From contig NZ_LYUZ01000068.1 in the NCBI RefSeq assembly GCF_001679925.1, positions 1-58,467 on the forward strand: DNA of 58,467 nucleotides. The letters are read 5' to 3'. The stretch's first letter is position 1, and every line of letters starts with the position of its first letter. Positions 2,993 through 29,030 of the stretch are shown piece by piece. The DNA is from Leisingera sp. JC1 (GTDB taxonomy: Bacteria > Pseudomonadota > Alphaproteobacteria > Rhodobacterales > Rhodobacteraceae). Under the pieces are notes generated by a model that ran no database searches, was not told the DNA's origin, and saw only the letters and a program-made list of their open reading frames with translations. A program made the position numbers and the translations under genes.

Positions 2993-3364
2993 TTATTCCA
3001 TCGGCTTCATCAGCTCAACTTCTTCCCCGTCCCGCACAGCGGTAAAGAAACAGGTCCGCCGGTTGGTGTGGCAGGCCGCCCCGGTCTGGCGCACCAGCGC
3101 CAGCAGGCAGTCGCGGTCGCAGTCGATCCGCAGGTCCACCAGTTCCTGCACGTGGCCTGAGGTCTCCCCCTTGATCCAGAACGACTGCCGCGAGCGCGAC
3201 CAATAGGTGACCTTGCCGGTCTCCAGCGTCTTCGCCACCGCATCGGCGTTCATCCAGGCCATCATCAGCACCTCGCCGGAGGTTGCATCCTGCGCAATGC
3301 AGGGGATCAGCCCGGCGTCATTGTAGGTCAGGCTGGCGGGATCAAAGGACTCGGGCGAGGACAT
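2993..3364 (-). CDS. hisI: Phosphoribosyl-AMP cyclohydrolase
   Basis: HisI opens the adenine ring of phosphoribosyl-AMP, the third step of histidine synthesis, using zinc and magnesium. The 123-residue product has the metal-site signatures RIDCDRDCL and ACHTNRRTCFF, with Cys and His residues in the expected order. It also has the upstream TYWSRSRQSFWIKGE block. Only the HisI domain is present; HisE must be encoded elsewhere. I chose ATG 3364, giving MSSPESFD, because the open frame further upstream has no HisI-like sequence. It is convergent with gluQ and divergent from the Fe-S scaffold gene. Confidence 0.95.
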   Translation of the reverse strand: MSSPESFDPASLTYNDAGLIPCIAQDATSGEVLMMAWMNADAVAKTLETGKVTYWSRSRQSFWIKGETSGHVQELVDLRIDCDRDCLLALVRQTGAACHTNRRTCFFTAVRDGEEVELMKPME

Positions 3365-3442
3365 GGGGGAAAAACCTTTTGCATCTGCTGTTCGGCTCCC
3401 TATGTATGGGGAACCTGCAAAATGGGAAAGACCGGGAAAGCG

Positions 3443-3895
3443 ATGTCTGGCGATAGTGATCTGATCAAGCTGTATTCCTCGCGCATTCTGGCGCTGGCAG
3501 CCGACATTCCGCACCTGGACCGGCTGCAGGCGCCGGATGCCACTGTCAAGAAACGCTCGCCGCTGTGCGGTTCTGCCGTGACTGTCGACATCAAGGTTGA
3601 GGACGGCCGGATCACGGATTTCGGTCAGGACGTGAAGGCCTGTGCCCTGGGTCAGGCCTCTGCCGCGGTGGTAGGCGCCAATATCATTGGCCGCTCGCAG
3701 GAAGAGGTTGAAACCGCCCGCAATCAGCTCAAGGCCATGCTGACCCAGGGCGGACCGGTCCCTGATGCGCCGTTTGACGAACTGGAAGTGCTGCAGCCTG
3801 CAAAGGAATTCAAGAACCGCCATGCCTCGATCATGCTGGCGCTGGAGGCGACGCTGGAAGCGATGCAGACTGCCGCCAAGGAGCAGTGCGCCTGA
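3443..3895 (+). CDS. IscU/NifU-like Fe-S cluster assembly scaffold protein
   Basis: This is a small IscU-fold protein (150 residues from this start) likely to hold or pass Fe-S clusters. Conserved family blocks are KRSPLCGSAVTVDI and DVKACALGQASAAVV, which give the first two ligand cysteines. A further Cys occurs only at the extreme C-terminus (KEQCA), unlike the internal third Cys of canonical IscU, so the cluster-binding set may differ. ATG 3443 and ATG 3422 are both possible starts, each with a weak GGGGAA or GGGAAA ribosome site. I prefer 3443 because the homologous part begins there. No isc or suf genes are adjacent, so its partners are unknown. Confidence 0.85.
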   Translation: MSGDSDLIKLYSSRILALAADIPHLDRLQAPDATVKKRSPLCGSAVTVDIKVEDGRITDFGQDVKACALGQASAAVVGANIIGRSQEEVETARNQLKAMLTQGGPVPDAPFDELEVLQPAKEFKNRHASIMLALEATLEAMQTAAKEQCA

Positions 3896-3944
3896 GGCTT
3901 TCGGCCCGCGCAAATAACACGCAAACAGCAATGATCATCAGACT

Positions 3945-3976
3945 GCCCTGCTCCTTTGCAGGGCTTTTGGTTTTCT
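3945..3976 (+). terminator. Rho-independent terminator after Fe-S scaffold gene
   Basis: A 7-bp GC-rich stem (3945-3951 with 3958-3964), a 6-base loop and the run TTTTGGTTTT form a terminator 50 bases after the stop. Confidence 0.8.
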
Positions 3977-3992
3977 ATGCTCCGCACAAATG

Positions 3993-4027
3993 AAAAAACC
4001 GCCGCGCATCCGGGCAGATGGCGGCGG
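3993..4027 (-). terminator. Rho-independent terminator on minus strand
   Basis: Read on the minus strand, CCGCCGC (4021-4027) pairs with GCGGCGG (3999-4005) around an inner CATC/GATG stem, followed by six Ts (3993-3998). It probably ends the transcript of the 40-codon gene at 4184-4306, giving that mRNA a 3' tail of about 155 bases. Confidence 0.75.
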
Positions 4028-4183
4028 CAGTTTTGCTCTGCGGTGCGGGACCCGGGCGGGCCAGGCAGGATCTTGAGGCAATCCAAACGGGGATCGGGAC
4101 AGGCGGTTGATCCCCGGAAACAGTCCGGGACAGGAAAGGGCCGGCCCGGCACAACAGAAGCATTCAGGAAAACGGTGCGGGGA

Positions 4184-4306
4184 TCAGAACAGGCCCGGCA
4201 GATGCAGCGCCGCCACCAGCATCACCATCAGCGAGGCCGCGCCGATGGCGTCCTGCAGCAGGGTTGAATGGGCGTTTTGAATGGTGGTCTTGATCTGTGC
4301 AATCAT
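4184..4306 (-). CDS. 40-aa small membrane protein, probably SOS-controlled
   Basis: A 40-codon open frame (MIAQIKTTIQNAHST at the N-terminus) ends in one hydrophobic segment, residues 21-40 (IGAASLMVMLVAALHLPGLF), after a short amphipathic stretch, so it should insert in the inner membrane. A strong AGGAGG ribosome site sits 8 bases before ATG 4306. It lies 148 bases after recG on the same strand, and that gap holds six GAAC half-sites including one exact LexA-type GTTC-N7-GTTC site. A minus-strand terminator follows. Known SOS-induced small membrane proteins such as Caulobacter SidA block division. This peptide has a similar size, topology and promoter type but no sequence link that I can show. 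Its function is not known. Confidence 0.75.
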   Translation of the reverse strand: MIAQIKTTIQNAHSTLLQDAIGAASLMVMLVAALHLPGLF

Positions 4307-4362
4307 GGCTCGGGCCTCCTCCAGTCTGCGATGCTGCTCTCTGGCATTCTTGTTGCCTCTTT

Positions 4363-4437
4363 GTTCTCATTTTTAAGAACACCTGTAAAGAACTTTTTGA
4401 GAACATTTGCGAACACAGAAGAACACCCAGGCGGAAC
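4363..4437 (-). promoter_or_regulatory. LexA-type SOS box within an array of GTTC half-sites
   Basis: On the plus strand GAAC begins at 4377, 4390, 4401, 4411, 4421 and 4434 (steps of 13, 11, 10, 10 and 13), with an opposed GTTC at 4363. The pair at 4390 and 4401 reads GTTC-N7-GTTC on the minus strand, the alphaproteobacterial LexA consensus. The near-helical spacing of the other copies would place them on one face of the DNA. The array lies 57-131 bases upstream of the 40-codon gene. Confidence 0.75.
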
Positions 4438-4454
4438 ACCCGCGTGACGGAAGC

Positions 4455-8953
<4,499 letters not shown>

Positions 8954-8961
8954 TCATCCTT

Positions 8962-9681
8962 TCAGGCGCCGACAGCCATCCTTTGACCGCCCGACATATG
9001 ATCTTCCTGCGGATCGCGCAGCACATAGCCGCGGCCCCAGACAGTTTCGATATAGTTTTCACCATCGGTCGCGTTGCTGAGTTTCTTACGCAACTTGCAG
9101 ATGAAAACATCGATGATCTTCAGTTCCGGTTCATCCATGCCGCCGTAAAGGTGGTTCAGGAACATCTCCTTGGTCAGCGTGGTGCCCTTGCGCAAGGAAA
9201 GAAGCTCCAGCATCTGATATTCCTTGCCGGTCAGATGAACGGCTTTGCCGCCGGCCTCCACCGTCTTGGCATCCAGATTGACCGCGATCTTGCCGGTCTT
9301 GATGATCGACTGCGAGTGGCCCTTGGACCGGCGGATGATCGCATGGATCCGCGCCACCAGTTCCTCGCGGTGGAAGGGTTTGGTCAGATAGTCATCCGCG
9401 CCAAAGCCGAAGCCCTTGATCTTGTTGTCGGTATCATCGGCACCGGACAGGATCAGAATGGGGGTTTCGATGCGGGACATGCGCAATTGGCGCAGAACCT
9501 CATGGCCGTTCATATCCGGCAGCCCCAGATCCAAGAGGATCAGGTCATAGTCGTAAAGTTTGGCCAGATCGATCCCTTCTTCCCCCAGATCCGTCGTATA
9601 AACGTTCAGGTTGGCATGGGTCAGCATCAGCTCGATGCTTTTTGCCGTGGTCGGATCATCCTCAACCAGCAGAATGCGCAT
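8962..9681 (-). CDS. ctrA: Cell-cycle response regulator CtrA
   Basis: CtrA is the OmpR-type master regulator of alphaproteobacteria. It binds TTAA-N7-TTAA sites and controls motility, division and, in Rhodobacteraceae, gene transfer agents and c-di-GMP genes. The 239-residue protein has a receiver with the acid pocket EDD (7-9), phospho-acceptor D51 in [11 protein letters not shown] and K in [10 protein letters not shown]. The winged helix includes [16 protein letters not shown] and [10 protein letters not shown]. The start ATG 9681 has a GGAG site. It ends in MAVGA, a hydrophobic tail that may replace the AA degron used by ClpXP in Caulobacter. sciP lies just upstream on the same strand. 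Confidence 0.97.
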
Positions 9682-27977: not shown

Positions 27978-29030
27978 ATGGGACTTTTCATTCTCCGCCG
28001 TTCGGGCGTGATGCTGCTGACGGCCCTGTGCCTGACGTTCATCGTGTTCTTCCTCACGAACCTCTACCCAAACCTCGAAAAACTCGCCAAAACCCAGGGC
28101 AACTTCCGCATGTCGGATGAGGCCGTGGCCAGCTGGCTGGACGCCAACGGCTATGGCGGATCCATGGTTTCGAAATACGGGCAATGGCTGGGCGTTCTGC
28201 CAGGCTGGACCCGCGAGACCGAGAAAGGGTTCACCGGCCGCTGCATGACCGGCGCGGTCAGCGCTGAGGAAGCCGCCGAAGCGCCGACCTTCTGCGGCAT
28301 TCTGCAAGGCGACTGGGGCTATTCGACCCGGTTCAAGGATGAAGTCTCCACCATCATCGCAGAACGGCTCGGCAATACAGGCCGCCTGATGTTCTGGGTG
28401 CTGGTGCTGATGGTGCCTTCTGCCCTGATCATCGGGGTGCTGGCGGGCATGCGAGAAGGCTCTGTCACCGACCGAAGCCTTTCAACCGCCTCTATCCTGA
28501 CCACGGCAACACCCGAATATGTTTCCGGCGTGATCTTCATCGCCGTGTTCACATCCTCCACCGTGGGCCTCAAGTGGTTCAAGGGCACCGCCACCTCGGC
28601 GATGGACAACCCGAACTTCGAGAACTTCTTTCTGCCGGTGCTGACCATCGCGCTTTACGGCATGGGCTATATCGCCCGGATGACCCGCGCCTCGATGACT
28701 GAGGTGATGACCGCCCAATACATCCGCACCGCCCGGCTCAAGGGCGTGAGCTTTCACAACATCGTTCTGAAGCACGCGCTGCGGAACGCACTGATTGCCC
28801 CCTTCACCGTCATCATGCTGCAGTTCCCCTGGCTGCTGAACGGCGTGGTGATTGTCGAGACCCTGTTCAACTACAAGGGCTTCGGCTGGATCCTGGTGGA
28901 AGCCGCGGGCAACAACGACATTGAACTGCTGCTGGCCGTTTCCGTGGTCTCAGTCTTCGTGGTGCTGATCACCCAGCTGATCTCCGACATCGGCTATGTG
29001 TATCTGAACCCGCGTATCCGGATCTCTTAA
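27978..29030 (+). CDS. Peptide-type ABC transporter permease (DppB-like)
   Basis: This is the first inner-membrane subunit of the importer. The 350-residue protein has an N-terminal membrane segment (VMLLTALCLTFIVFFLTNLY), a roughly 100-residue periplasmic loop longer than usual for DppB, and then five membrane segments. The ATPase-contact EAA loop reads YIRTARLKGVSFHNIVLKHALRN in two overlapping parts. GDWGYSTRF before the core is typical of DppB-class permeases. A GGGGA site precedes ATG. The second permease follows after 15 bases. Confidence 0.92.
   Translation: MGLFILRRSGVMLLTALCLTFIVFFLTNLYPNLEKLAKTQGNFRMSDEAVASWLDANGYGGSMVSKYGQWLGVLPGWTRETEKGFTGRCMTGAVSAEEAAEAPTFCGILQGDWGYSTRFKDEVSTIIAERLGNTGRLMFWVLVLMVPSALIIGVLAGMREGSVTDRSLSTASILTTATPEYVSGVIFIAVFTSSTVGLKWFKGTATSAMDNPNFENFFLPVLTIALYGMGYIARMTRASMTEVMTAQYIRTARLKGVSFHNIVLKHALRNALIAPFTVIMLQFPWLLNGVVIVETLFNYKGFGWILVEAAGNNDIELLLAVSVVSVFVVLITQLISDIGYVYLNPRIRIS

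Follow-up and report, generated by a model that had tools for sequence, protein, structure and literature searches.

In Rhodobacter sphaeroides, the gene for the small protein CcaF1 is followed in one transcript by the small RNAs CcsR1-4 (PMC8307010, accessible part). In the literature searched, this appears to be the nearest known design within the family Rhodobacteraceae to the unit analyzed here, a 40-codon gene with GTTC repeats ahead of it and a structured RNA behind it, which lies beside recG in Leisingera sp. JC1 (contig NZ_LYUZ01000068.1). We refer to this whole contig of 58,467 nucleotides (nt) as the window. The two are likened by description only, and they differ in that CcaF1 is described as an RNA-binding protein, not a membrane peptide, and is followed by four small RNAs instead of one junction (PMC8307010, accessible part). 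Pos19, also of R. sphaeroides, is a 219-nt small RNA carrying a small open reading frame (ORF) that is translated, but it has an RpoE promoter (TGATCC-N15-GCGTA), lies between cxp and fadB, and is described in R. sphaeroides strains only (PMC5036791, accessible part). VcdRP of Vibrio cholerae combines a 29-amino-acid small protein with a regulatory RNA in one transcript (PMC8672173, accessible part), but it belongs to an unrelated organism and is likened by description only. DNA damage induces the Caulobacter RNA ChvR through a two-component system, with no SOS box involved; this RNA differs in being 84 nt long and specific to C. crescentus and in its ChvI motif, which is not seen at the Leisingera locus, and the accessible part of its description mentions no peptide (PMC6237742). 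SidA of Caulobacter is likewise a small peptide, and it inhibits cell division (PMC13384398, accessible part). SidA is controlled by LexA, which is unsupported at the Leisingera locus, and this likeness, too, is by description only. To our knowledge, no 3' RNA is known for SidA.

The unit itself is undescribed in the literature searched, with supplements and most subscription papers beyond reach; this covers the accessible parts of PMC6473078, PMC9275681, PMC4809877, PMC10659215, PMC13384398, PMC9731502, PMC6237742, PMC2864571, PMC2877005, PMC8632094, PMC8307010, and PMC5036791. A term search found no occurrence of recG or LexA terms in the accessible text of PMC4809877 and PMC5107571. The main text of PMC8632094, as far as accessible, has two Rhodobacterales RNA motifs (HRC-8-4 and uORFC-8-2) at other loci, and the RNA may still figure in the supplement.

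Comparison across the family makes it reasonably probable that the locus is a family-wide transcript with two outputs, a membrane peptide and a structured 3' RNA, under a regulator that reads helically phased GTTC repeats. According to this model, the locus would be its own transcription unit, conserved across Rhodobacteraceae. A regulator would bind directly repeated GTTC sites, spaced 10, 10, and 11 bp on one helix face and reaching up to the -35 element, and would control a σ70-like promoter (TTTACA-N17-GAACAA, with an extended TGA). The first output would be a 40-amino-acid peptide forming a single inner-membrane helix. The second would be a four-way-junction RNA of ~135 nt whose loops are C-rich, CUG(C/U)C, with an intrinsic terminator behind it. 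This RNA probably persists as a stable 3'-end product and captures either an RNA-binding protein or mRNA targets. The features of the locus are as follows; the coordinates of the half-sites, ORF, and ribosome-binding site (RBS) were read straight from the sequence.

4434..4437, minus strand: outermost GTTC half-site, variable across relatives
4421..4424, minus strand: GTTC half-site, conserved in part (logo position -31)
4411..4414, minus strand: conserved GTTC half-site, with the next site 10 bp downstream (logo position -21)
4390..4404, minus strand: GTTC-N7-GTTC, the conserved pair spaced by 11 bp, GTTCTCAAAAAGTTC (window count, relatives, and logo)
4384..4389, minus strand: TTTACA, -35-like, abutting the last conserved GTTC (putative promoter, from sequence and logo)
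4361..4369, minus strand: TGAGAACAA, extended -10-like element, preceded by a 17-bp spacer (logo)
4315..4320, minus strand: AGGAGG RBS, 8 nt before the ATG
4184..4306, minus strand: gene for the 40-amino-acid, single-helix, membrane-type peptide (ORF list, homologues, substitution ratios, and AlphaFold)
4028..4164, minus strand: conserved structured RNA with a closing stem, a four-way junction, and three hairpins with C-rich loops (covariance)
3993..4027, minus strand: predicted intrinsic terminator, GCCGCCGCC...GCGGCGG and then a U run (fold)
4455..6545, minus strand: recG, the upstream neighbor on the same strand (Pfam RecG domains)

A sequence-only reading of this stretch had picked out a short gene with a consensus AGGAGG site next to recG, and the gene is there (40 codons, 4306..4184 on the minus strand). 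With the 40-amino-acid query, we found a match at E ≤ 0.1 in 313 of 394 Rhodobacteraceae genomes, leaving 81 without one; by genus, the peptide was present in 312 of the 393 sampled. For closer comparison we used 80 named relatives, the best 80 of 229 confirmed. The median ratio of nonsynonymous to synonymous substitution rates (dN/dS) was 0.08 over 253 close pairs of these relatives and lay below 1 in all 253, and the other two frames of the same stretch gave 1.47 and 5.65. Entropy at the three codon positions of the ORF was 0.74, 0.35, and 1.38. These comparisons indicate that the peptide gene is real and under strong purifying selection. Two of the checks proposed with the sequence-only reading, on conservation and on the synonymous pattern, turned out positive. 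T15, L16, D19, G22, L26, L34, and P37 are among the residues that vary least across 86 distinct peptides. The peptide had no significant match to a Pfam, PHROGs, or NCBIfam profile; 1 of 22 members had a nonsignificant NCBIfam match (E of 0.055). The one membrane helix of the sequence-only reading stood as far as the helix goes: AlphaFold predicts one, over residues 2 to 39 (mean predicted local distance difference test score, 81.8), and the second half of the peptide is hydrophobic. This single helix would lie in the inner membrane.

On the same strand, recG precedes the gene at all 30 loci of one set and at all 80 named loci. At one divergent locus (L275, genome G344), the upstream sequence was, by eye, unlike recG, and the unit may therefore move independently, separate from recG. 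In a record titled Nocardioides marinus DP1N28-1 (L111), recG and the peptide gene are arranged as in Leisingera relatives; the record looks mislabeled.

Upstream of the gene, GAAC starts on the plus strand at 4377, 4390, 4401, 4411, 4421, and 4434, in steps of 13, 11, 10, 10, and 13, just as the sequence-only reading had described (six half-sites spaced 10 to 13 bases). Read along the minus strand, there are six GTTC sites (4434-4437, 4421-4424, 4411-4414, 4401-4404, 4390-4393, and 4377-4380), then a seventh in the opposite orientation (GTTC at 4363-4366 on the plus strand, GAAC on the minus strand), AGGAGG, and the 40-codon ORF. The one exact GTTC-N7-GTTC pair that had been claimed for the minus strand is at 4390-4404. 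Alone, this pair is barely beyond chance in the window, which has 4 against 1.42 expected (at least 4 in 5 of 100 shuffles). The four-site run GAAC-N7-GAAC-N6-GAAC-N6-GAAC (4390-4424) occurs once in the window and in none of 100 shuffles.

Sequence comparison indicates that the array and promoter are conserved together with the peptide, in keeping with the multicopy array that had been noticed upstream of the gene. In the 80 named loci, chosen by the peptide, GTTC-N7-GTTC was present in 78, the three-site form GTTC-N6-GTTC-N7-GTTC in 70, and GTTCTT followed 18 to 24 bases on by GAACAAA in all 80. The half-sites at 4411-4414, 4401-4404, and 4390-4393 are near constant across relatives, that at 4421 is partly kept, and the positions of 4377 and 4434 vary. 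The promoter consensus reads GTTC-10-GTTC-11-GTTC-TTTACA-N17-GAACAA. In a logo of 124 distinct promoters picked by pattern (two GTTC at a spacing of 9 to 12 bp, the second followed by TT, with GAACAA ~23 to 34 bp farther on), a choice that inflates the invariance of the parts it requires, the last conserved GTTC was invariant, the site 11 bp upstream was 98 to 99% conserved, the next was 91 to 95% conserved per base, the TTTAC after the last conserved GTTC was 94 to 100% conserved per base, and a GAAC lay 27 bp from that GTTC in 118. This selection bias does not reach the exact spacings, the A-tracts, the third GTTC, or the part of TTTAC after its TT, and the sets found by the peptide (the 80 named loci and the 30 loci) are free of it. 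Across 13 genomes of the genus, that of Leisingera sp. JC1 included, 12 have a single array with the GTTCGCAAATGTTC core, and the other matches to the bare array pattern have different cores.

We infer that TTTACA-N17-GAACAA, with TGA before the -10-like part, is a σ70-like promoter with a poor -10. The poor -10 suggests help from an activator. The one-turn repeats end at the -35, where a bound regulator would contact RNA polymerase, and for this reason we propose the geometry of an activator rather than a repressor. A conserved leader, GRGKCAACAA in the logo (window 4349-4360, minus strand), directly follows the -10-like element, near the putative start of transcription.

The layout, in which co-directional direct repeats are spaced by a turn of the helix and run up to the -35, would suit an OmpR/PhoB-type response regulator. 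Such a protein, acting in envelope stress or another two-component pathway, would bind the 10/11-bp direct repeats and activate the promoter, and we regard this as a tentative but serious candidate. CenR-activated promoters of R. sphaeroides have a similar layout with another motif (PMC9275681, accessible part). That motif, TGA-N8-TGA (PMC9275681, accessible part), was absent by eye from the conserved logo positions, as was the ChvI motif TTGC-N3-GCAA. Both differ from the array, and CenR and ChvI were rejected as candidates by motif; we found no alphaproteobacterial regulator with a GTTC repeat in the literature searched.

The sequence-only reading had taken the repeats for a LexA-type array. 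On that reading, LexA would bind the GTTC repeats cooperatively and repress a damage-induced membrane peptide that delays division. GTTC is indeed the LexA half-site in this family: GTTC-N7-GTTC was found at 25 of 30 recA loci and 30 of 30 lexA loci (67 boxes in total), and 11 of the 30 lexA promoters themselves have three GTTC sites, 11 bp apart (L238, L240, L241, L242, L243, L245, L256, L258, L259, L262, and L263). Scored with a matrix, the array pair had a median of 17.0 bits (n = 113), compared with 20.5 for real boxes and 10.1 for random pairs; 18% of real SOS boxes fell below the array score, and 6% of random GTTC-N7-GTTC pairs exceeded it. By this measure, the array pair could serve as a LexA site, albeit a poor one that scores in the lower part of the SOS range. 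The base before the second GTTC was T in 60 of the 67 recA and lexA boxes but A in 29 of 29 arrays and in 121 of the 124 promoters. The Caulobacter LexA consensus, (T/A)TGTTC(N6)TGTTC, has the same T (PMC13384398, accessible part). In addition, the core spacings of 10 bp are unlike the SOS pitch of 11, and the array ends directly upstream of the -35-like TTTACA.

We also compared the array with the distribution of LexA. The LexA DNA-binding domain was undetected in 19 of the 394 genomes, and a query with the Leisingera LexA gave a partial LexA in 2 of these (G122 and G233). With a peptide profile at E ≤ 0.01, the peptide was present in 11 of the 19, and 10 of the 11 keep GTTC-N7-GTTC upstream. 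Eight genomes at least 95% complete had no detectable LexA ortholog (G029, G059, G069, G150, G158, G160, G167, and G301). Among them, G069 has a marginal LexA domain match (E of 5.3e-4) with no ortholog by the Leisingera LexA query, and G059 and G150 have distant LexA matches only (28% and 25% identity). Four of the eight keep array and peptide, which speaks against LexA: G069 (100% complete), G160 (96%), G158 (95%, with 6% contamination), and G150 (100% complete, in 3 contigs), whose array is down to a single N7 pair and a third site out of place. The share with the peptide is lower there, though, 4 of 8 as judged from the profile or by eye, than the 281 of 347 that the less sensitive single-sequence search gave for good genomes, and this would fit a tie to LexA. 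On balance, the case for a LexA array is weak and unsupported, and we consider LexA an unlikely regulator; the usual DNA-damage switch is probably not the control of this unit. The locus also argues for caution in calling every GTTC-N7-GTTC an SOS box, as the half-site is kept here while the spacing and flanks differ, and the array remains in some genomes that have no detectable LexA.

Right behind the stop codon (4164-4028, minus strand) lies the structured RNA, which was absent from the sequence-only reading. The window RNA folds with -74.9 kcal/mol (z of -3.07, terminator included), and single-sequence folds of divergent relatives mostly took the same shape. RNAalifold on a plain MAFFT alignment found the terminator only, and a first subset gave little; a closer set was needed. 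Of 83 loci searched with a covariance model, R1, built on 23 sequences (alignment A3), 61 gave a match where it was expected, 57 of them at E < 0.01, seeds included. In the alignment fitted to the model, which leans toward it, 38 of 39 pairs changed on both sides, with 396 double-change cells against 122 when shuffled and 85.2% of cells paired against 67.5% when shuffled and at most 45.6% when slid. In the unfitted MAFFT alignment A3, on which the structure itself had been predicted (one helix was added by hand), there were 67 double-change cells against 28.6 and 84.6% pairing against at most 50.9%, and 17 of 39 pairs changed on both sides (12.7 when shuffled, a value of 17 being reached by 11 of 500). 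In a sample of 60 of 117 RNAs, the multibranched shape was taken by 73% of natural sequences against 25% of shuffled ones, and the minimum free energy had a mean z of -2.67, with 35 of 60 below -2. The RNA is absent from Rfam as searched: window 3000-6600 at E ≤ 5 gave four subthreshold matches, and five relatives at E ≤ 0.5 gave three matches, none of them on the RNA element.

Loop sequences were conserved as well. The 117 RNA rows, at least 1 of which (L005) has the wrong ORF picked and which also served in the leader-pairing analysis, had 2.9 CTGYCY motifs per RNA against 0.57 when shuffled; CTGTCCC was found in 95 and CTGCC in 114, and the longer CTGCCTGTCC was found in only 35. These motifs had a mean probability of being unpaired of 0.73, compared with 0.45 over all positions. 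Together with the covariation, this indicates a four-way-junction RNA with C-rich loops that is selected for structure.

The RNA is also linked to the peptide gene. Of 137 RNA matches, 90 were in genomes with listed peptide coordinates, and in 86 of these 90 the RNA lay 8 to 79 nt (median, 19) behind the peptide on the same strand; the remaining four had E > 0.02. From the 47 matches without listed coordinates, we fetched 12, and all 12 had the array, a small ORF, and the RNA. Four of these 12 were in genomes without a peptide match in the single-sequence search. Taken together, these counts indicate that array, peptide, and RNA travel as one linked unit and suggest that peptide and RNA are cotranscribed.

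The RNA might be no more than an intricate terminator, or a stabilizing element, of a small mRNA whose sole product is the peptide. It does end in an intrinsic terminator, and the peptide ORF is ahead of it in 12 of the 12 loci chosen by the RNA. We nevertheless find this doubtful, since conserved loops stand on covarying stems, and a mere stabilizer would have no need of a conserved loop sequence. A type I toxin-antitoxin-like unit on the logic of TisB, with the peptide as a pore-forming toxin and the RNA controlling its translation, would suit a small hydrophobic peptide with a structured RNA adjoining but is very improbable given the strong purifying selection, the single peptide match per genome among the matches listed (except in G018 and G383), searches that found no viral and no plasmid relative of the peptide, and an RNA that is downstream, not antisense, with no coevolving pairing with the 5' leader.

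Several points weigh against our proposal of a regulated transcript with two outputs. It is drawn from sequence comparison, and the transcript, protein, and binding are predicted. The published CenR and ChvI motifs differ from the conserved promoter positions. R1 missed 22 of the 83 loci and gave one extra weak match (E of 0.77), and a second model, R2, run with strict filters, matched 135 of the 394 genomes at E ≤ 0.1; by these searches, the array is more uniform than the RNA. Possibly the RNA does no more than stabilize the 3' end. Pairing of the conserved 5' leader (AGRGGCAACAA) with the RNA loops, which we considered and rejected, had a mean energy of -12.75 against -12.65 when permuted (standard deviation, 0.15), and 484 of 2,000 permutations were equally low. 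Finally, the peptide is missing in 4 of the 8 near-complete genomes without LexA, compared with 66 of the 347 good genomes without a match.

If the dual-output reading holds, the unit could be a stress gene in which the LexA half-site is reused at another pitch. Its repeated CUGYCC loops would sequester an RNA-binding protein or silence a set of mRNAs and in this way link the envelope with posttranscriptional control; we put this forward as a speculative extension. Members of the Rhodobacteraceae rank among the most abundant marine bacteria. The spread across the family, the place behind recG in the 110 loci measured, the constant promoter, and the absence of the RNA from Rfam suggest a core function that is unnamed in the literature searched.

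In the Leisingera genome, GTTCACAAATGTTC occurs at C84:41-54, 5915-5928, and 65211-65224 (L092-L094), among the matches listed (100 of 154). These three further copies sit in similar repeat-like stretches, apparently the ends of a repeated element, and look unrelated.

Beyond recG, a long ORF (6542-8920), called ligA in the sequence-only reading, separates recG from a response regulator gene at 8962-9681 on the minus strand (Response_reg and Trans_reg_C domains), which we take to be CtrA-like. Elsewhere in the window, Rfam RF02647, the Cis52_sRNA family (Ruegeria cis52), matched at 28606-28785 on the minus strand with 140 bits.
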